From Endocalyx cinctus (taxonomy: Eukaryota; Ascomycota; Sordariomycetes; Amphisphaeriales; Apiosporaceae), in assembly GCA_001600455.1 (NCBI GenBank), contig BCKC01000004.1, positions 62,001-126,000 on the forward strand: 64,000 nt of DNA. Direction: 5' to 3'. The translations under genes and the position numbers were made by a program. Shown piece after piece: positions 9,605-64,000 of the stretch. Each line of letters begins with the position of its first letter. Within the stretch, counting starts at the first letter, position 1. The notes under the pieces were generated by a model. It searched no databases and was not told where the DNA came from. It saw only the letters and a list, made by a program, of their open reading frames with translations.

Positions 9605-10351
9605 ATGAACTTCCTATCTAGACCTACAACATCCGGATTAAATCCCATCGAACGTCTGAATGACCCCACTAGCGTCCTGGTGAATATATCCAGCGAGGGG
9701 ATCCCCCTCTGCCTGAACATGAGTAACACGATCTCAGCAGAAGTAAGAGGTGGGAGCTTGGACCTGACATCAACTACTATGGTGTTGACCAAGTCGCTCA
9801 TCTTCGTCTTCCTGATTCTCTCCTGCTTTGCATACTCGACGGTGGTCCTGGTGGGCTTGGTGATCACCCTCTCGGTCTCGAAGTTCCACGACGAGTACAT
9901 GACTATCTCGACACACAGCTGAACATGGGTATCTACCCGAGTGGTTCCTGAACGAGTAGGCACAGATCAACACACCATCAACAACGACATGGGCAAGTGC
10001 GTGACCACGACCGACTTCGTCAGCATATTCACCAAGATGAGTTGGTTCGTCGACAAGATAATGAAGGCCAACATCAAGCCGTACACCAACACGAATGTAG
10101 ATGCCCTCGTTCTGACGGAGCTGATATCGATGAACAACGAGAGTATGAGATGCAATCACACATCGACTAGAGACAGGAACAGGCTGTGCTATGAGAGGAC
10201 ACCGGACGACTGGAAATCCATACCGACCACGGTTGAGCAGATGGTCGCCAACTTCGCATCCATGATGGGCGATAGCATGATTGTGAGAGAGAATGAGGTC
10301 ATGTGTTCCACTATGGTCGATATAATGAAGGGACCTGAGGCTCCAGTTTAA
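9605..10351 (+). pseudogene. GC-rich single-pass membrane protein, one internal stop
   Basis: One frame runs from ATG 9605 to TAA 10351, interrupted only by TGA at 9920-9922; a CGA there would restore it, a C-to-T change. Third codon positions are strongly C/G on the plus strand and not on the minus strand, which decides the orientation against the overlapping minus ORFs. Residues about 62-90 are a strong membrane segment (KSLIFVFLILSCFAYS onward). The C-terminal soluble half contains DFVSIFTKMSWFVDKIMK and RLCYERTPDDWKSIP. I recognise no family. The composition differs sharply from the AT-rich flanks, which hints at separate origin. An intron around the stop is possible, but only about 31 nt could be removed. 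Confidence 0.5.
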
Positions 10352-26210: not shown

Positions 26211-26349
26211 GAATGTTATGTGCCGGGCATGGTGTTTGCGATATATATAAGTCGCAATCTCTTTCTTACATTCAAGTCTATTCGCCCTTGATCTCTCACT
26301 ATTTTATTTCACTTCTTATTTGCGACAGTATGAAGAAGATTATTAGCGG

Positions 26350-26465
26350 TTAATAGAATAATCTGGAATATAATGATCTGGAATAGAATGATCTGGAAGA
26401 ATATGATCTGGAAGAGAATAATCTGGAATAGAATGATCGAAGAATATGATCTGGAAGAGAATTTA
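26350..26465. repeat. 15-16 bp tandem repeat array
   Basis: About seven units of GAATGATCTGGAATA / GAATATGATCTGGAAGA. The minus strand of the array translates to an ILFQII-type repeat that inflates an otherwise unsupported ORF (26309-26896). Confidence 0.75.
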
Positions 26466-26865
26466 TTAAAGAACATTTCCGGAGAGCCTTTCGAAGCTAT
26501 TGAAATATAACCTCTAAAAATCCGAGTGTCGAGCTGCAGGAGTAAATCCTTAATGCGAAAAAGCTGGAAGCGGCTGATATCTGTTTTACAGATTAATGGC
26601 GAGGGGGTGAATTCTGGTGGACCACTATTCGTTAGTGTTAGCTGCCGCCAGATTTCCAATTTGTCCTCGAAGGAGGTACCCTGGGATAGTTTGATTTGAT
26701 TGACCGTCGCTGTCTCTATTGTTGGCCTGAACAGTACCGGAACAAGATTAGCACCACGGAGGGAAAAAAAACCAAAAAGTGCTCTCGTTGTCGTATTTTT
26801 CCTTAAGATATTCTTCCTTATCGTTATAATCTTCCTCGTATCCTTCCTTGAGACCCTCGTGTTAA

Positions 26866-27067
26866 CAGTCAGCATTCCGATGGCTAGTATATACAATACA
26901 TATCTTTAGGAAGGGATGAGACCCTTTGCTATGCGCTTTCAATTGTCTCCCTGGGCAATCCCCTCTATAGCAAATGTCACAGTCATCATTCCAATGGAAA
27001 TAATGACTAGTCCCCACTCACCACCCTGCTTCAATATAGCAGTCAGCATTCCGATGAAAGGAATGAA
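26866..27067. repeat. Dispersed CATTCCAATGG repeat, three units
   Basis: Units at 26867, 26980 and 27040 share AGTCAGCATTCC(A/G)ATG then GGAA..AATG. The core is an imperfect palindrome. Further units lie at 28114, 28210 and, inverted, 33915. The pairs at about 27 kb and 28.1-28.2 kb also share flanking sequence (CCCCACTCA, TAATATAG), so a larger segment was duplicated. Confidence 0.7.
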
Positions 27068-31522: not shown

Positions 31523-32252
31523 TTATAGTTGAATTGAATGAATCCTTGATGTTGGCCTTGCTTTTATTGTGATCTGCATTGTAGTATTATTTTATATAAT
31601 TTTTAGAGAAGCCTTTTACATCATAAGTGAGGATAGTATCAGTCGTGGAAGGAATTAAAGCTTTAGCTAAAAATATAACTTAGGAAGAGAAAAGGTATTA
31701 TGTAGCATATGATATTGGTGCTTATGTGGTATATGGTGTTAGATGTCAGTCATAGTACTGGTGAAAAGTAGGAATGAGTGTGATCAGCCACTATGTAAAT
31801 GGTATACTGTCGTGGTTAACATAAGTTGATAGTAGTAGTGATCAAGGCTGGCCAAACTAAACATAGAACAATGTCCAAGTTAACATATGATGATAGGGAC
31901 CAAGAACAAGGTTAAATATGCTGTAATATAAAGACTGTCGTGGTTTAACATGTCTTTATAGTTAGGTGATGAAGTTGAGCCAGCAGGAATATAAACCAGT
32001 GTCGTTAGGATCATATGTATGCAGGAACGATAAACAGATACTACCAAACTTTTAGTAAACCACTATTATCTTTAGCAACTACGAATAGCTGACAGGAACA
32101 AGACATGCATGAAACTTAAAAATCTTTGACTATAGATAGTACCTCTCAAAAAGCTATGCTTCTTGATCTTTATACCTGATGTTACCTCGACATAACTGTC
32201 TAAATATCACAATACCACCTCAGCTACCAGCCATAACTATCTAGGAAACACT
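31523..32252. other. AT-rich, gene-free
   Basis: Short dispersed words such as TGTCGTGGTTAACAT recur at 31811 and 31929. No gene. Confidence 0.35.
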
Positions 32253-32420
32253 ATGCCATTCTCACTCCCACCTCTTGCAAGGACAGAGGAAAGCTTACCT
32301 ACACTTACCCATACTCCTTCAACACAAGTAAACCCCATGCCATTCTTACTCCCACCTCTTGCAAGGACAGAGAAAAGGGTATCTATATCTATCCATAATT
32401 TCTTCAACACAGGTAGGAAA
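32253..32420. repeat. 84-bp tandem duplication
   Basis: Unit 1 at 32253-32336 and unit 2 at 32337-32420 both begin ATGCCATTCT and contain CTCCCACCTCTTGCAAGGAC. The period is divisible by three and both strands stay open, but I see no gene. Confidence 0.8.
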
Positions 32421-34197: not shown

Positions 34198-34371
34198 CTA
34201 TGCCGCGATATTTAGTTGTTGCTTAGTATCTAAGATATAAGACTTGAGATTATCCGCCCAGGCCTTCAGCTTCAATAAGTTATTATTAACTTCGCCACTT
34301 AATTTCGCTGTCTCTTCCTCTAAACTACTATGCATTAGTGCCCGTAGACTTTCATGATATTGTATGGTATT
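34198..34371 (-). pseudogene. C-terminal coding fragment cut off at the recombinase element
   Basis: Minus-strand frame from about 34371 to TAG 34198: YHESLRALMHSSLEEETAKL, VNNNLLKLKAWADNLKSYI. Helical, with no start. The open frame stops 10 bp from the left end of the inverted-repeat element, so the insertion may have removed the 5' part. I found no obvious continuation on the other flank. Confidence 0.35.
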
Positions 34372-34380
34372 TACCTATTA

Positions 34381-34832
34381 GTATGTGTTTCCGCGTGGAA
34401 AGGTTGCCGTTTTTGGCAGGCAGGCTTTGCCACATTTAGCAGTTGTCTCACAGCGCTAAGGTTTTCCTATCCAGGCATCAATTTTTTCGACGCTTTCCCA
34501 AAAACAGATGCTCAGCTCACCGCCTTCCCTAAAGCACATATCGATCTCACCGCCTACCTATTCCTGTCATTCATGATCCCCCAACTGCTAACGGTCGCTT
34601 CCGTCAAAAACGGTTAAAGATAGTATCCAATAACGCCCCCGTCCCCCTTTTTCCGTTCTGTAGATAATACACATGACTATAATAAACGATTCTATTTACC
34701 TCTACGCGATGGGTTCTAATTTAAGACTTTGTTATTTTGATTATAAGGTATCTATACGGGGTTTAAACTTAATTAACGCATTTATATATAAAAACTTGTA
34801 GCTTGTTAGTTTAGTTATCTTCTCGTATTCCC
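34381..34832. repeat. Left terminal inverted repeat
   Basis: 452 bp, starting GTATGTGTTTCCGCG and ending CTCGTATTCCC. It contains the recombinase stop codon (34815-34817) and 3' region. An 87-codon ORF inside it is mirrored in the right copy and is not convincing as a gene. Confidence 0.9.
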
Positions 34833-36925
34833 TGGTTCGCTTCCGAATACGATCTCTTGATAGTCGACTTCGTTAAAATCGGGCATATAATAACGAACAT
34901 ACGTCGACGAGTCCCCAAGCCTATGGCCCATACTCTTATTGCGCTCTTCTGGGGTTAGCGCCTCTGTGGCCGACTCATTAGCTTCGGCCTAGCAAAAATC
35001 GCTGGTGCACATACCGTTCAGCTTTTTGCCTGACGCTCGGCGAAGGTCGTAATATTCAAGCCGCTTCTCATAACCGAGGGCCCTTCCGAGACGAATCAAA
35101 AAATTCCTCGCTTTATTATACTCAAAGGCTCTGTCCAGGGCCAAGATGACGTCTTCCCCTAGACCCTGGACATCGCGAAATACATACCTGTCACGCCACT
35201 CAGTTTTCCAGGGAAGGGGCATCCGGGGAGTATTGGGCGGCACCCTTAGGTTATAAATCTCTTGTAGACTCTCAAACTCGTTTAGAAAGGCGTTGTCGGC
35301 GATAGCGATACTTTCCATATATAAGACGGGATCATGCAGGAAAGTGTCCTCTTCGTGAAACCCATAGCTTGTCGGTCCCGTTTTCCCTTTCATATTTGTC
35401 AATGTTACCTTCATGCAGACGCGCGCCGGTCGACTGCCAGCCGTCGGTGGATGAACTTGGAACTCTACGTCTTTATATAGCAACTGTCCGATAAGTGCTC
35501 CAGGTCGCATCCCTGTGGCACCAGACAAGCAAAGAATTAGCGCCATATTCCCGCGCAACCGTTCATGCGACAAAACGTCTTGGTCAAGAACCCAGAGGTA
35601 GTGTAATATCGCATCTAAGTCTGAAACATAGAGGCCCGACTTATTCTTAGTCGAGATATCAAGCCCAAATTCAGGCGTGAGAACAACAGGGATCCACTTA
35701 ATAAAGCTTTATACTTAGCAAACTAGTCGCCTGACTTGAGGGTTTACGTACGTTTCCAATGTCATATAATATTGCGCCGTTCATCCATGCTTTCGTCTGG
35801 TCGCAATAATGCATGCTGAGAACCTTCCAATATGTAACAATAGATGACTCCTTCTTGACTCTTGAATTTTTACATCTCCAGTGTAAGTAGCCCTTGAATA
35901 TGCTGGCCTCGCATTGCTTGAGGGCTTCTCCTGGGTCCCGCCCCGTTATACTACAGAACCTAGGATGATACGATATATTAGCTTGATACGTCAATTAACA
36001 CCGAAACTTGAACAACTTACTTGTCCCATTTAGTCTCTTCCGTCTTGATCATCTTTCCCGTAGAATTCTCTTCCCTCCTTGCCATGATAGGGCCCTCCTT
36101 TTCGTACTCGGCAATCTTTGTATTATAAAATTCACCTTCGTCTCGGCGATCATCGGTTGAGACATAACCAGAGTCAAGATCGGAATCCGAATCAGAATCA
36201 GAATCCAGCTCAGATTCTGAATTAATATCTGACCTGGAATCGGAATGTTCTGAACAGTACCCGGCATTATCTTCCGATGGAGATCTAAATACCGAGTCGG
36301 GCTGTGGCAGCTTGGAAGTAGGATCGTATACTGTAAGCGATGTAGCTGTGGTGGGAATGCTTGGACATTCGGATCCAATTTTGACTTCTTGTAGTCGCGG
36401 GGTATTATTAACTAAATTTCCGTCCTTATTCGTTGTTAATAGTGAGGTATAATTAAAAGGAGCAAATCATTTTAAACTTGTCTTACTTACCGGTTGGTTT
36501 ATTATATTAGATCTTTTTAGATTAATAAACTCCTCCTTTTTATTGATGCTACCTTCTTCGGATACATGAAGTAAATTTTCCAGTAAGGCAGTTAAGGAAC
36601 AGATTGCTTCATCAAAGATAGCGAATGCTCGAGTCACCTTAGTAGTAAAGACGGACGCGGTGCAGTTTATTAAAACGTCTCCGAGGAGAGAGGCTTTTGT
36701 CACAGCGAGAATATCGAGCTGACATTTTGCCGAAATAACAGCATTGAAAATGGCGTCTCTTGGGATTGCAGCGCAATTTACTAACTCATCTCGAGGTCCG
36801 TCACTATTGATGCTTGCTCTTCCGTTGGGGGCTGTAACGGCAGGCGCTGCTCGCTTCATGTTCCGACGCTGGCGCCACCTCCGTGGAGGCTCAAGGTGCT
36901 CGGTCATGCTGCTCACGTTGTTCAT
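34815..36925 (-). CDS. DUF3435 tyrosine recombinase (Starship captain family), five exons, 614 aa
   Basis: My model has exons 36925-36487, 36387-36021, 35959-35752, 35696-35015 and 34963-34815; the four introns are 51-99 nt and the total is 1,845 nt, in phase throughout. Exon 2 has an acidic (SD)n stretch and ends TKWDK. Exon 3 carries FCSITGRDPGEA and ESSIVTYWKVLSM, and exon 4 WIPVVLTPEFGLD, ATGMRPGAL (Arg about 402) and YDLRRASGKKLN (YxxR at 554-557). Exon 5 carries LTPEERNKSMGH and STYVRYYMPDF with the likely nucleophile Tyr (587, 590 or 591). This is the R...YxxR...H...Y box of DUF3435 proteins, which cut and rejoin DNA to move Starships and Crypton-like elements. Intron 4 hides a TAG that would otherwise truncate the protein before the catalytic Tyr. 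The first junction has two usable acceptors (36388 or 36385). The N-terminal exon is lineage-specific in sequence. Confidence 0.85.
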
Positions 36926-36989
36926 GCTACTCGAGTATAACTAAAAGACTATGCAAGAAGATCTAAACGATACGTTCATTCTGAGAAAA

Positions 36990-37441
36990 GGGAATACGAG
37001 AAGATAACTAAACTAACAAGCTACAAGTTTTTATATATAAATGCGTTAATTAAGTTTAAACCCCGTATAGATACCTTATAATCAAAATAACAAAGTCTTA
37101 AATTAGAACCCATCGCGTAGAGGTAAATAGAATCGTTTATTATAGTCATGTGTATTATCTACAGAACGGAAAAAGGGGGACGGGGGCGTTATTGGATACT
37201 ATCTTTAACCGTTTTTGACGGAAGCGACCGTTAGCAGTTGGGGGATCATGAATGACAGGAATAGGTAGGCGGTGAGATCGATATGTGCTTTAGGGAAGGC
37301 GGTGAGCTGAGCATCTGTTTTTGGGAAAGCGTCGAAAAAATTGATGCCTGGATAGGAAAACCTTAGCGCTGTGAGACAACTGCTAAATGTGGCAAAGCCT
37401 GCCTGCCAAAAACGGCAACCTTTCCACGCGGAAACACATAC
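36990..37441. repeat. Right terminal inverted repeat
   Basis: Inverted copy of 34381-34832. Its inner edge lies 65 bp upstream of the recombinase ATG, so transcription must start within it. Confidence 0.9.
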
Positions 37442-37728
37442 TTTTAGATATATGCTCATGATGGTAGGAAAAATACATAGTTTTAAGAGTTATAAATAGC
37501 TGCGAACAAACTCGTATTTTGTAAGTATGCATTTTTATACACTAACTGCACGAAGCATTTCGTGAAGTCGATTATTTATTTGTTTATTGTTTTACGCGAG
37601 CTAGGTTATTCGAGCATCGAAGATTTTAAGGCCCGGACGTATAGAGGTTTGATGACGTAGGATAACGCAACTTTATAGTACAACCAGTCAATTTCCGAGG
37701 AAGAACTGAACGGGACCGGGCGCGATTA

Positions 37729-38056
37729 ATTTTATATTTATGGATGTCGTCGGTGCTTATCATTATTTAGTAATCGATTTGACCTCGAGTCCGGCTTGCC
37801 GGCTTTCACAAGTGTGCGAGGCGCGATGGGTTTCGGAGCTAGCGATAAAGGTTTCTGTGGAGCTAAGGGAGGCAATGTATTATTATGTCTTATGACGAGA
37901 TTAACTACAGGTATAATGAATCCTGGATCCTGGATTGAGGCTATAACAATATGTGTTACTGGGAAAACATCGAGATCTGTCTTTAGGATGGTGAACGAGG
38001 GAAGCGCCGATGAATACGAATATCTGCGTAGTTACGCACATGCCCTTTATCCTTAA
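37729..38056 (+). other. Weak ORF with Cys/Gly-rich start
   Basis: Open frame to TAA 38054 with ASDKGFCGAKGGNVLLC and GSADEYEYLRSYAHALYP. The only start is TTG or an internal ATG. It is convergent with the small two-exon gene. No family recognised; it may be an exon. Confidence 0.25.
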
Positions 38057-38489
38057 TCGTTCACATCCTCCGCTTCGCTGACTGCTTTTTTCAGGTACCC
38101 AAAAAGGGTTTGAGAAAAGTTTAACATATTCTGTCTTAACTTCTCGAGAGACTCTCTGAGCTGATTAACGACTTGCGTAATCCCTTCAATAGCACCTCCG
38201 AAGCGGCCTACTGTGTCCCGTATCTCCTGCGCGTGTTGCTCGCTCCTGCTTAATGAAGCTTCAATTTTATCTATACGGGTGCATATCATAATGAGAAGGC
38301 TGTCTGTGATTAGCTAACTGTATGGTTGTAAAAAGATACGGCTTACCTCCTGATGTCTGTGTTGGCAGATATTGTAGGGTCCTCTTGGACAGCTGTGAGA
38401 TTTGGATCGTTATTGCCGTCGCTAGCAAATGATGGGAAACTCCCAGCATCGAACCAGTCGCCTGAGAAAAGACTAATGTCAGGGTTCAT
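38053..38489 (-). CDS. Small coiled-coil protein, two exons, 129 aa
   Basis: ATG 38489 opens MNPDISLFSGDWFDAGSFPS. Exon 1 ends at 38347. A 46-nt intron (GTAAGC...GCTAAT...GACAG) joins in phase to exon 2, 38299-38053. The C-terminal two thirds form heptads: DKIEASLSRSEQHAQEIRD, GAIEGITQVVNQLRESLEK, LNFSQTLFGYLKKAV. It is probably a dimerising cytosolic or nuclear protein. An ORF at 38704-38486 upstream on the same strand overlaps the ATG by 4 nt and could be an earlier exon in another frame. No family recognised. It sits 600 bp from the recombinase element. Confidence 0.5.
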
Positions 38490-58626: not shown

Positions 58627-61600
58627 TTATCTTGGGCCTTGTGCGGAAAACCGTAAAATAATGACTCTTCCCGACGAATTGCCAATTACTATAGTTGGCC
58701 CGGAAATTGCAGACGCACTAGGTCGATATTCTGCTGGTAACCATAGTAAATCCTTTCCATCTAAAGTTATCCAGGAGCTATTTCCGTTTATACCATACCC
58801 GAGGGGGTAATTCTGGTTATGCTTGGGTAAGATCTCTATAGGGGGTGTAATGGAAGACGTATAAATATTAGAATAAGTGACGGGTGCTGGTTGAGATGGA
58901 CGATCAAAAGAAATAGCACCAATATCAGTCAATAAGGATTGGCTCTCTTTATTAAAGGATAAACTATAAGAAGCTCTACCAATGTTAATTGATTGGAGAC
59001 AGCGACCCGCCGACCAGAGCCGTACTGTGTGGTCGTCTGATCCCGAAGCTACCGTTCGGCCGTCGGGCGAGAACGCGACCGAAGTAACGGAGCTGCTATG
59101 GCCTTCGAGCGTCTGTAAACAGTTATTCCAGTTCAAATTAATTCGGGGCCTAAGAAGTATCCATTTTGGGAAATTATCTTGGAACGTCTTGCGAATAATA
59201 CTCGCTTCCGGCGCGAAGATAAGAGTCGAAGCATATACTTGGAGAGGCGCTGTTTGTATTATTGAAAGATTCGTAAGAGCAAAACGTAAAGCATCATCGA
59301 TAAAGTTCGATAATTGACAGCTGTCTCGAGCCTAAATTATATTAATTAATGATGATATAATAAAAGCGGGGGGATATACTTTATATAATAATTGTAACGT
59401 CCTTATGTTTTGGAGACTTTCTGAAGTCCTTCCTATTAGGCTTAGTGCTTCTAACCAGTGAAGAAAATGGACTTGAAGGAAGCGATAGACTTGATTATCG
59501 TCGTCGATATGTCCCCCTGCTTGCTCTAGATGATAAACCCAGTATTGGCATGCGTATTGGACTTCCGGTTGTAGGCTATCGTTTAATATCTGCGGCTCAA
59601 TAGAAGAGTGGAGAGTCCCGGGCCATTTTAGTTCGCAGATATCTGTTCGAAGGGCTTTATCTAATACCCGCAGACAATGTATAGCCAGTTGCCTGTGGGT
59701 TTCCTTCTCATTCACCCAGAATCGATTATTGCGTTTCTCGGGATCCAAGAGGAAGTCACGAAACGAGAGATGTAGCAGTCTGATAGGCGAGGCGGGTGAT
59801 GAGGGTACGCTTAGCACTGAGTGGAGCAGGTCTAGTCTGCCATCGACAGTCTCTTGCTCTGTGTTGAGTAATCGCGCTAAAGCTTGCACGGAAAGGGGAT
59901 TTGCAAGGACTATAATCGAGCCTACAATAGCCCGAAACTCTTGCAGTGCTTCACTTACTTCCCGTTCGGAGAGATCGGCAAGCATATAGTCCAGGACAGG
60001 TAGATACGTCGCATTCAGCTTGGACTCCTGACTTTTAGTTCGCTGCTGTAAAACTATCTGAAGCTTTGCCTTTGGGTTACCAACCCTGCGATCAGCTATA
60101 AACCGACAGACTGTGGTAGCGAAGATAAAGAGCGGAACAGCCATATCTACAAGAATCTGGATTTCCGATGGCTCAGGCCAGCTCGATGGTAGTTGTCGTT
60201 CATCTCTAATCTTGGCGAACTCGTGGAGGAAATATGCAGATATGTCCTTCGCAATTACTAGCTCGGGTACCTCGTGAAGCACCAAATCTTGGTACGCGCC
60301 GTTAATATTTTTAAAACCAAGTCGAATTGGTAGATCGGGCCGGCTGGTTATAAAGATCCGCAGCCGTGGATACTGCGACGCTGGAATCCGAGAAAACAAG
60401 TGGATGATATTTTTAACGTCTTCCTCTTGTTCACACTCGTCAAGAGCATCAACCACAATTATAAGAGCGTCAACTTTCCAAGCGTCGCGAGGAATGTCTA
60501 ACAGGGGTTCGAGTATAAGCTTCTCAAATTGCTCTCGCATCGTCTTCCCAAAGATGGCAGGGTCGGCTTCGATAGCGCTTTGAACGTGTTGTGCAAGTTT
60601 CGGACTCTTCCGAATCAGCTGGCTAGCTATCGTGCTAAAGAATTTGGATATTCCACCTCGATCACCCTCGCCTCTCTTGAAAAAGAAGCTAGCGCCAAGT
60701 TGGCCGCGCTCCGAGAAGGCGCGAGCCACGGTACGTGAAATGGTTGATTTTCCTGTGCCAGCCATGCCATTTAGCCAGAAGATGGTCTTGGCTTGAGTAT
60801 TGTCCGCCCAATCCTGTATTGCCTGTAGAAGGTCGACTCGAGTATCTCGTAGGCATGTCGGATTGTGTTCTTCAGCGTGGGAATCGAAGGAAGCTCCGTT
60901 AGCAATAGGCAGTTTATCGAGCACTGGCTTCTAAGAGCGAAATATATGGTTAGCAAAAGATCGTAGGGCGGGTGTTTTCACTTACTCCTAATTTCCGATT
61001 AATCTCCCCCTGCAAGCGCCTAAACGCTTCTTCCTCCCCCTCTCCGTAAATAAGAGGCATGTGAATATCGAAAATACCCAATAATGAGTAAGCTTTGTCT
61101 TCTTCTTTTTTCGTCCCGCGGCCTTTTGACCACGACATTCGTATATCGGTACTAAAATCTGAGAGCGGATATCCTCGAAGAGCGTTGATTGCGATTCCTG
61201 TAACCTCGTGCACTAGCCGTTCTAGTGATTTCTTGTCGCCTAACCGCTGCCTGTTCGAGGCAAAGAACTCTACCGATAAGGGAGCAATGAGCTCTTGGAG
61301 TGTCCAGCCACGAGTAAACCATCTGCTATTACGAAATTCCTTTTGCCACGTTGATCGGAGAGGCTCTGCGATATGTGTGATATCGTTTTTTAAGACGTCG
61401 GACAGGTAAACGTAGCATCTGGCTGCATTCTGGTACCATCGAAACATAGAGTTGATAGCTTCGGAAAGCTCTGTATTGTTTGATTTATCAATGCAACACG
61501 TATCGATCCAGACATATTGGAGACCATCAGATGCAGCCTGATCAAGGCAGAACTCGATCTTTCGATATCCCTCCTTCTGTCGCACAGTATTTTCCACATG

Positions 61601-61750
61601 TCGCCCAATGCCCTCCGAGATGTCTTTAAATGTGATTTCCTGGTTATCATGTCCCCATGTATGCGACAGTATAGCGTATTGTGGGATGGCTCTAGAGAGA
61701 TCTTCGGTCAGCGTCGGGCTACCATCTTCTCGGCGGTATAAAAGGCGCAT
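58627..61750 (-). CDS. HET-NACHT-WD40 (HNWD) heterokaryon-incompatibility NLR, three exons, 1,006 aa
   Basis: My model has exons 61750-60986, 60930-59380 and 59331-58627; introns of 55 and 47 nt, all phase 0. Exon 1 is a HET domain: [31 protein letters not shown]. Exon 2 is a NACHT NTPase: Walker A GMAGTGKS (about 310-317), Walker [13 protein letters not shown], and [12 protein letters not shown]. Exon 3 begins in the linker ([25 protein letters not shown]) and has one canonical WD40 repeat ([17 protein letters not shown]...DDHTVRLW), then the conserved C-terminal extension. The layout is that of HET-D/HET-E/HET-R proteins, cytosolic sensors that trigger cell death on recognition of non-self alleles. 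Paralogs usually carry several WD40 repeats; only one is clear here. The frame is intact. Confidence 0.9.
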
Positions 61751-62404
61751 GGTCGGATGTTGCGTTATATTACGAGTGTGAAAAACGAGGCCGCGTTATT
61801 GCAGGTTAGTTAGTGTCGTTGATGTGGTATTTAGCAAGTTACCGGCTGGTGTTATCTAGTATTGAATGGTCTCGCTTCGATAGGAAGTTCTGAGATGACA
61901 GTGTAGAGAACCCCTCATCAATATTACGATCCTAGAATAAGGCTGCACCAGTCATGGGATATGCAGGTCTACCCAATCAAGTTATATCATCTATTGTGCA
62001 ACAGCTTGCTCGACATCGCACTGTTTACAACGCTCATTTTTTTGGTGCGCACCGCGAATAACTCTAGGCCGGGACCGCGTTGAGGGTGTGAGATGCATCA
62101 TTGAATTTTTATGGTATAGTTATGGTTCATTCGAATAATTCAACCGATATTTTTAGAATATCCAAGGAGATACGCAATGCGATATAGTGAATAACGACGA
62201 CAATACACGTTATTTGCTCGTTTCCAGAGTGGGTGGTGTTGAAGAACGCTAGGCTAATAATTCGTATATCGACCAGGGTGCCTGGAAATCCAGGGCTAAA
62301 TAGTGGGTAGAACGCCCTGTAAATGCGGGGCGGAGATTCAACCACGTATCATAAAAATTCTGATTCCTTCCTTACGACAACATAAAAAAGACGTCATATA
62401 TAAA
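61751..62404. other. Intergenic and 5' part of Tc1 element
   Basis: The HNWD promoter must lie at its left end. CCAGGGTGCCTGGAAATCCAGG near 62273 (read in two halves CCAGGGTGCC / TGGAAATCCAGG) is self-complementary and may be the left terminus of the transposon. The right terminus lies beyond the window. Confidence 0.35.
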
Positions 62405-63382
62405 ATGGCACCGAATCTTGCACCTTCCCAGCTCGAGCTCGCTCATGGAATGATCACTAGTGGATCATTTACTAATAACGAAATCGCAGGTGCCGTTAGC
62501 TGTAGCCCTCGCTCGATTCGAACGATCCGATCGAACCTTCGTTGCTTTGGAACCACTCGAGCACCTCCCAACGCTGTCGGACGACCCAGAACCGTAACAC
62601 CACCTATGCTTGATGNATTGCGCGACCTTCTGATTCAGAGACCTAATATGTATCAAGACGAAATGGTCGCGNTTCTTAAGGACGAGTTCGACGTAGAGGT
62701 GACAAGAATGAGCATTAGCAGGGCCTTAGCTTCAATCGGATGGTCGAAGAAGACCATACGACGTGTCGCTAAGGAGCGTAATACAGATTTACGGGATCTA
62801 TACTGTCATAATTTATTGAGCTTCCGGTCTTACCAACTTGTTTACGTAGACGAGTCTGGCTGTGACAAACGGGCAGGGTTTAGACGCATGGGTTGGTCTC
62901 CACGGGGCGTGACACCCNTCCAGACTGCTCGGTTCCATCGCGATCGCAGGTACCAGATCTTGCCAGCTTATACACAGGATGGGATTATCTTTTCGCGTGT
63001 GTTTCAAGGATCGANCGACACCGTCGTTTTTGAAGATTTCATTGAACAGTTGCTATCTTACTGCGGGAGATGGCCTGCACCGAAGTCTGTCCTTGTGATG
63101 GACAATGCATCATTTCATTACTCTGATCGGATTGAGAGGCTATGCGACGAAGCAGGAGTAAAGCTTGTGTACCTGCCTCCGTATTCGCCGGACCTGAATC
63201 CGATTGAAGAGTTCTTCGCCGAGCTGAAAGCATTCGTCAAGAGAAACTGGCATGTCGATAGTGGTTTTCCTAGGCAAGACTTTGGTACCTTTTTAGAGTG
63301 GTGCATAGATACTATAGGATCAAGAAAGTCAAGTGCCGAAGGTCACTTTCGGCATGCTGGAGTTACTATGGATTATCTGTAA
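62405..63382 (+). CDS. Tc1-type DD34E transposase, 325 aa
   Basis: ATG 62405, TAA 63380. The N-terminal paired HTH (TNNEIAGAVSCSPRSIRTIR) and the GRPRTVTPPM hook between the two helix-turn-helix domains are present. The second HTH is EVTRMSISRALASIGWSKK. The catalytic triad is YVDESGCD, VLVMDNASFH and LNPIEEFF, with 34 residues between the second Asp and the Glu. The length equals that of intact fungal Tc1 transposases. It cuts its element at the terminal repeats and inserts at TA. Four ambiguous bases (62616, 62672, 62918, 63015) hide residues but no stop is seen, so it may be active. A convergent ORF follows 32 bp downstream. Confidence 0.9.
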   Translation: MAPNLAPSQLELAHGMITSGSFTNNEIAGAVSCSPRSIRTIRSNLRCFGTTRAPPNAVGRPRTVTPPMLDXLRDLLIQRPNMYQDEMVAXLKDEFDVEVTRMSISRALASIGWSKKTIRRVAKERNTDLRDLYCHNLLSFRSYQLVYVDESGCDKRAGFRRMGWSPRGVTPXQTARFHRDRRYQILPAYTQDGIIFSRVFQGSXDTVVFEDFIEQLLSYCGRWPAPKSVLVMDNASFHYSDRIERLCDEAGVKLVYLPPYSPDLNPIEEFFAELKAFVKRNWHVDSGFPRQDFGTFLEWCIDTIGSRKSSAEGHFRHAGVTMDYL

Positions 63383-63414: not shown

Positions 63415-63993
63415 TTACGCAACTTGATATTTCTCAACCCAGACCTTAATATCCCGCACGAATCGTTTTGCAATACCACGTTTAACCCCTTGTGTTACTA
63501 AGAATTGAAAGTCCTGTTCTTCGTGAAGCTGCTCGAGATCAAGACCATCACCCAGGGTCAGATCTCGGGCCCTCTGAAATTCAAGCTTAAGCTCNCCATT
63601 CTCAACTTGCGAGCATTGCCAATCGCAATANCTCTTGACAGCTATATCACGAGATCCTGATATCTCAATAGNACTTAATGCCATACCTGCTCGCCTTTCT
63701 GTCGGCACTTCNGCGGCATGGCTAGGCATGACATTGGTGATCTGAATCGAGGGTTGCTGAGTCGACNAGGAAGCGTCACGTTTCCTTTTACGTTCTAGGT
63801 ATTGCTNCTCCTCGGCATATAGTTGGTTACNGATTTCATCAGGCATATCATCATGGCTTTCCAACTTATGACCGCTGTCGATATGTTTGATGAGGCTNCT
63901 TAAATGGTGTGTCTGTAACCTATAATGTCTGTTCGCACTTCTGTCCCTCCAACAATAGGGGCCCAGGTGACACGGCGGTCCTGGACATCGCAT
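63415..63993 (-). CDS. Accessory Cys-rich ORF of the Tc1 element, 192 aa
   Basis: ATG 63993 opens MRCPGPPCHLGPYCWRD, with three Cys and then THHL...SLIKHIDSGH supplying His, a plausible zinc-binding module. A helical, charged middle (LYAEE, LERKRKR) and a C-terminal domain (RDLTLGDGLDLEQLHEEQ, KRFVRDIKVWVEKY) follow. It runs convergently to the transposase, 32 bp apart. I recall similar proteins next to fungal DNA transposases but know no assigned function. Eight ambiguous bases fall inside it. An upstream exon beyond the window cannot be excluded. Confidence 0.65.
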   Translation of the reverse strand: MRCPGPPCHLGPYCWRDRSANRHYRLQTHHLXSLIKHIDSGHKLESHDDMPDEIXNQLYAEEXQYLERKRKRDASXSTQQPSIQITNVMPSHAXEVPTERRAGMALSXIEISGSRDIAVKXYCDWQCSQVENXELKLEFQRARDLTLGDGLDLEQLHEEQDFQFLVTQGVKRGIAKRFVRDIKVWVEKYQVA

Positions 63994-64000
63994 GAGGTTA

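Follow-up and report, generated by a model that had tools for sequence, protein, structure and literature searches.

A gene for a tyrosine recombinase (YR) of the DUF3435 family, the family of the Starship captains, is bracketed by two long inverted copies of one sequence in Endocalyx cinctus. Is this unit a transposable element of its own, or has a captain gene been caught in a rearrangement? The preferred answer, with a probability of about 0.6, is a rearranged remnant of a DUF3435 captain locus. Three observations form its basis: the arms are identical, the unit is present as a single copy in its own genome, and the family similarity ends at the edge of one arm.

In the window, the whole 64-kb stretch of DNA that was analyzed, the unit has the following boundaries.

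34375..34381, no strand: outer left edge, CTATTAG; the right edge is CTTTTAG at 37441-37447, with one mismatch

34380..34833, plus strand: left inverted arm; the recombinase frame (minus strand) ends in its inner 19 bases; 454 of 454 bases are identical to the reverse complement of 36989-37442

36989..37442, minus strand: right inverted arm; flanks the recombinase gene on its 5′ side and holds the TTTATATATAAA motif

The initial annotation had described inverted copies of equal length (452 bp). These were borne out and reach one base further on each side. The arms enclose 2155 bp, and the bracketed unit of 3063 bp contains one recognized gene. Ungapped extension of the arm pair yields 465 nt at 99% identity, the added outer bases being imperfect. 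The sole other inverted pair of at least 60 nt reported in the window measures 64 nt at 84% identity. In the genome of the fungus (44.76 Mb, 15 contigs), the arm sequence matched at its two places only; this count, like all counts from genome sequence searches given here, is a lower bound. The divergence between the arms amounts to 0 differences in 454 positions (upper 95% bound 0.0066), so that either the duplication happened recently or the arms became homogenized. The inner contexts just inside the two arms differ. RIP indices, calculated for the arm alongside its neighborhood, gave no clear sign in either direction. A TATA-like TTTATATATAAA is located in the right arm about 105 bp upstream of the ATG, a position spotted after the fact; the motif is a palindrome and thus carries no orientation information.

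The recombinase gene is located on the minus strand. A splice model with five exons yields 625 codons and is open throughout.

36491..36925, minus strand: exon 1, with the ATG at 36925; splice model

36021..36424, minus strand: exon 2; splice model

35752..35959, minus strand: exon 3; splice model

35015..35696, minus strand: exon 4, encoding most of the DUF3435/YR domain; splice model

34815..34963, minus strand: exon 5, encoding GH, the presumed catalytic Tyr, and 23 further residues; the arm contributes the last five codons and the stop

The introns comprise 66, 61, 55, and 51 nt and have GT-AG ends. Splice sites were picked by eye and then checked for an open frame. An alternative intron 4 of 33 nt, instead of 51 nt, keeps the frame open too and yields 631 residues with the same stop. 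A Pfam scan of the 625-residue protein identified DUF3435 (PF11917, E=1.1e-40) and no other family at E up to 1. The exon-4 open frame (34989-35708) gave DUF3435 with E=8.9e-32. A PDB sequence search revealed 0 matches at E up to 1. In an alignment of the protein from exon 4 onward with three paralogues (alignment A1), the H of GH (H241) and the Tyr (Y253) are invariant columns. The R of GMRPG is common to both paralogues covering that stretch. These conserved H, R, and Tyr residues are presumably catalytic, as in other tyrosine recombinases. The catalytic residues of tyrosine recombinases are stated as R-H-R-Y (PMC3212892). With its presumed catalytic residues, the short protein may possess a residual recombinase activity.

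The left arm probably truncated the gene, because the profile match stops at the arm edge and the tail is short in comparison to the paralogues. The DUF3435 match aligns residues 374-620 with profile positions 2-253 of 418. Codon 620 corresponds to 34833-34835; its position 34833 is at the same time the last base of the left arm on the inner side. Profile matches do not end with residue precision, and the base-level coincidence with the arm edge may be partly luck. Residues 621-625 and the stop codon (34815-34817) lie within the arm, into which the frame runs open without a disabling mutation, a point against a remnant. The aligned Tyr is followed by 23 residues, vs. 272, 428, and 206 residues in the paralogues L016, L018, and L019, respectively, which are 21-26% identical to the recombinase over the aligned region. 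L016 matches the DUF3435 profile up to position 418, as the only one of the three longer paralogues with a profile match beyond position 253. L017, the fourth other DUF3435 place, covers profile positions 4-132 only and was left out of the C-terminus comparison. The initial annotation had seen one intact five-exon DUF3435 gene enclosed by the arms. One gene with five exons and an open frame is present, but it is neither intact nor enclosed: its stop and last five codons are part of the left arm, at whose inner edge the profile match breaks off. An intact element is doubted mainly because the family similarity ends where the left arm starts.

The transposon reading had been tied to further copies sharing both boundaries and to an empty site. 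Both were sought in the own genome only. Searches with the arm, the whole unit, and the outer 20-mer revealed no second element with the same ends there; for this one genome, that is the outcome named by the initial annotation as refuting the transposon reading. The outer 20-mer, allowing up to 3 mismatches, gave at least five matches, two of which are the arms; a reversed control pattern gave at least two. The whole unit (E up to 10) had 39 bp of intron 2 on contig C5 as sole match elsewhere. This stretch (35975-36013) is 92% identical to C5:3339018-3339056 (L036), the one extra copy found; the three frames on that strand are rich in stops, and an introner-like or other small repeat may be represented. 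Outside the locus, the 625-residue protein yielded three weak matches, at C4:458425 (E=0.0012, a known paralogue), C8:2421094 (E=0.0039), and C7:377482 (E=0.012). DUF3435 has at least eight matches in the genome. One is the recombinase gene, the other seven are located in four places. The 10-kb stretches around these four places (4/4) contain no inverted pair longer than 53 nt, and the 53-nt pair does not bracket the gene.

The search for an empty site via both flanks found none in the own genome. Each flank is present at full length once only. Short flank pieces recur on contigs C13 and C11, without an empty site. A 51-bp block (34327-34377) recurs once, on the 418-kb contig C13 (L031:3585-3635), and the similarity stops 2 bp before the left arm. 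The 10-kb stretch at this block on C13 showed no right-flank similarity; it contains another shared piece in a different order. Interruption of one gene by the unit found no support: peptides of the flanks matched their own places only, the single exception being a weak match at the C13 block. Beyond the own genome, the exon-4 frame was compared with prokaryote and viral contigs, resulting in 25 and 5 pattern stretches, respectively, and no confirmed relative; this search used exact peptide words and hence reaches close relatives only. A 22-base end sequence had 0 matches in viral contigs. A 17-base end sequence had 7 matches in bacterial records, which were taken as chance.

At the outer edges, CTATTAG/CTTTTAG is the best direct repeat and is imperfect. 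A repeat as good or better was obtained in 394 of 5000 random flank pairs, hence it is not significant. The pair is weakly transposon-like, a further point against a remnant. A scan over offsets from -14 to +7 revealed no direct repeat of 3 to 13 bp without mismatch. Because the arms are perfect, the missing perfect repeat speaks against DDE elements with longer duplications. It is compatible with a YR element, since imperfect direct repeats have also been recorded in a Starship (PMC12506042). For inverted similarity between the outer flanks, tried at four lengths, the random frequencies were 0.056, 0.017, 0.024, and 0.052, uncorrected.

Two readings had been offered by the initial annotation. 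Truncation at the arm edge, the one genome copy, the lack of a significant target duplication, and the lack of long arms in the 10 kb around 4/4 other DUF3435 places favor the captain caught in an inverted duplication. The other reading, a compact YR transposon class with long TIRs and no cargo, found no support in the own genome, and the truncation weakens it.

As a captain remnant, the unit would have formed as follows. The right arm would be the 5′ flank of the gene itself, including the promoter. It may also be a relic of a Starship-type element, namely its 5′ edge, with the captain a few hundred bp inside. The ATG is located 64 bp from the inner and 517 bp from the outer edge of the right arm, the latter being the putative element edge. 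The left arm would be an inverted second copy of the 454 bp, joined into the gene just past the presumed catalytic Tyr. There it would have replaced the C-terminal portion of the protein and anything that followed. The right arm is taken as the original and the left arm as the inverted copy, because the left arm meets the gene inside the conserved domain. No break was apparent between the right arm and the 5′ end of the gene. The initial event may have been an inverted duplication by template switching or end joining during repair. Alternatively, the same element may have been present twice, head to head, with a large deletion between the copies. We infer that the gene once encoded the C-terminal part and that the locus has become immobile.

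The unit resembles Starships, whose captains carry DUF3435 (PF11917), in the recombinase family. The DUF3435 gene comes first at the 5′ edge of a Starship; in the unit, a few hundred bp lie between the captain start and what may be an element edge, and the profile match comprises positions 2-253 of 418 only. The differences concern size, protein, and ends. Starships range from 15 to about 700 kb (PMC12134995), whereas the unit has 3.06 kb and no cargo. The C-terminal part of captains beyond the YR domain is lacking, as the protein of the unit stops shortly past the presumed catalytic Tyr. The two ends of the unit are the same 454 bp, inverted. Direct repeats and an empty site, traits of Starships as well, are represented by the insignificant CTATTAG/CTTTTAG pair and by no empty site in the own genome. 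The initial annotation had ascribed short or no terminal repeats to Starships, in partial agreement with the literature: TIRs are reported in 18/20 high-confidence Starships of A. fumigatus (PMC12153272).

The surroundings of the unit showed no further Starship signs. The window contains 23 open frames of at least 170 aa. Nineteen of them and a shorter frame (38056-38313) were Pfam-scanned, and the exon-4 frame was scanned separately; the frames 9773-10351, 26312-26905, and 63418-63999 were left out. Pfam matches in the window include protein kinase, alpha/beta hydrolase, P450, Tcp11, and acyltransferase. A DDE_3 transposase open frame (62300-63379) comprises 360 aa, with scattered single Ns from 62616 on. 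Two 71-bp direct repeats with 83% identity are located at 32243-32397, their starts 84 bp apart. WD40, NACHT, and HET frames are arranged in a row on the minus strand (58630-61795). HET-NACHT-WD40 genes are common in fungi. NLR-type genes are named among Starship accessory genes (PMC12506042), and by analogy these frames could be accessory genes of a Starship. The start of the HET frame in this row, compared by eye with L018:3524-4033, is identical in 59/60 printed residues; the L018 frame adjoins a DUF3435 gene at C4:389 kb. DUF3723 is another named accessory family (PMC12506042). It has at least six matches in the own genome, none on the contig of the window; three are located on C3, at a distance of about 3 kb from its DUF3435 place. 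The latter region, C3:1922295-1926966 (L019, L050), with DUF3723 and DUF3435 genes about 3 kb apart, is a candidate Starship region.

Doubtful as an origin of the unit is a non-autonomous DDE-type transposon, e.g. a Tc1/mariner-like element with long TIRs, that picked up part of a captain gene between its ends. A precedent is MarCry-1_FO, a Crypton recombinase inside a Mariner element (PMC3212892), which shares with the unit a recombinase gene between inverted repeats. MarCry-1_FO differs in 16-bp TIRs, a TA duplication, a DDE transposase, and four analyzed copies (PMC3212892), none of which was demonstrated for the unit. A capture would agree with a gene fragment ending at the repeat edge, and the DDE_3 transposase frame is present in the window at 62300-63379. 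The outer ends offer TA if the termini are read as TGTG, but TA inside inverted arms is its own reverse complement and thus uninformative, also as regards a 2-bp TA duplication. A perfect duplication of 3 to 13 bp (offsets from -14 to +7) is missing despite the perfect arms. A family of copies would be a further trait of TIR (DDE) transposons, but the arm sequence matched at two genome places only, and other elements with these ends were not found in the own genome.

The reading as a compact transposon, built of a recombinase gene and long terminal repeats, is unlikely. In its self-sufficient form, with TIRs of 452-454 bp, the short recombinase would excise the 3.06-kb unit as a circle and integrate it. 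The joined ends would then form a recombination site, in which inverted TATGTGTTTCCGCG flank the 7-bp spacer CTWTTAG. Perfect arms do bracket the gene, the presumed catalytic residues are retained, and the imperfect 7-bp direct repeat at the outer edges falls into the 6-8 bp range of YR-site spacers (PMC3212892). However, the arm edge is exactly where the family similarity ends, and the protein is a short one. Independent copies sharing both ends are absent among the matches in the own genome, which revealed the one copy. The direct repeat was equalled in 394/5000 random flank pairs, and comparable arms are absent in the 10 kb around 4/4 other DUF3435 places. With this evidence on both sides, self-sufficient movement appears quite improbable.

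CryptonF elements provide the other comparison for a small fungal unit with a single YR gene. Cryptons have no TIRs or long direct repeats, 4- or 6-bp direct repeats occur, and CryptonF proteins carry GCR1_C (PMC3212892). In contrast, the unit has 454-bp inverted arms and no perfect 6-bp repeat at the scanned offsets, and its protein carries DUF3435 only. In the available portions of the literature on DUF3435, captains, Cryptons, and long TIRs with fungal tyrosine recombinases, no DUF3435 element of this shape was found, which is no proof of absence. A minimal YR transposon class, defined by a short captain that stops shortly past its catalytic tyrosine, long perfect inverted ends, and a lox-like circle junction (two inverted 14-mers, 7-bp spacer), is very unlikely. 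If the compact element were true, a captain without cargo or C-terminal part would move alone between long inverted repeats, and it would break the present picture of DUF3435 elements.

Equally improbable as the self-sufficient transposon is an internally deleted Starship with long TIRs at both ends. The deletion would have removed the 3′ part of the captain, all cargo, and the inner 3′ TIR, and the outer edges would be true element ends. TIRs are frequent in Starships (18/20, PMC12153272), and direct repeats may be imperfect in them (PMC12506042), but TIRs of 450 bp were not met in the Starship literature covered. The left edge, ATTAGT, fits the target A(N)TAGT given for the Lamia Starships (PMC12153272). 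The right edge, AAAAGT, misfits this motif; several motifs were open to comparison, and the fit of one edge to one of them, spotted after the fact, is weak.

Most improbable is an assembly artefact from a misjoined chimeric or fold-back read: the junctions were judged from the assembly alone, but the left and right flanks differ and are each full-length once in the genome, a simple fold-back read would mirror the flanks as well, and the stretch between the arms is full-length once only in the genome.

Read as a rearranged remnant, the locus of E. cinctus would be a small example of captain-locus decay. An inverted copy of the 5′ flank would be located where the C-terminal part of the captain should be, and this copy would be recent enough, or homogenized enough, for the arms still to be identical.
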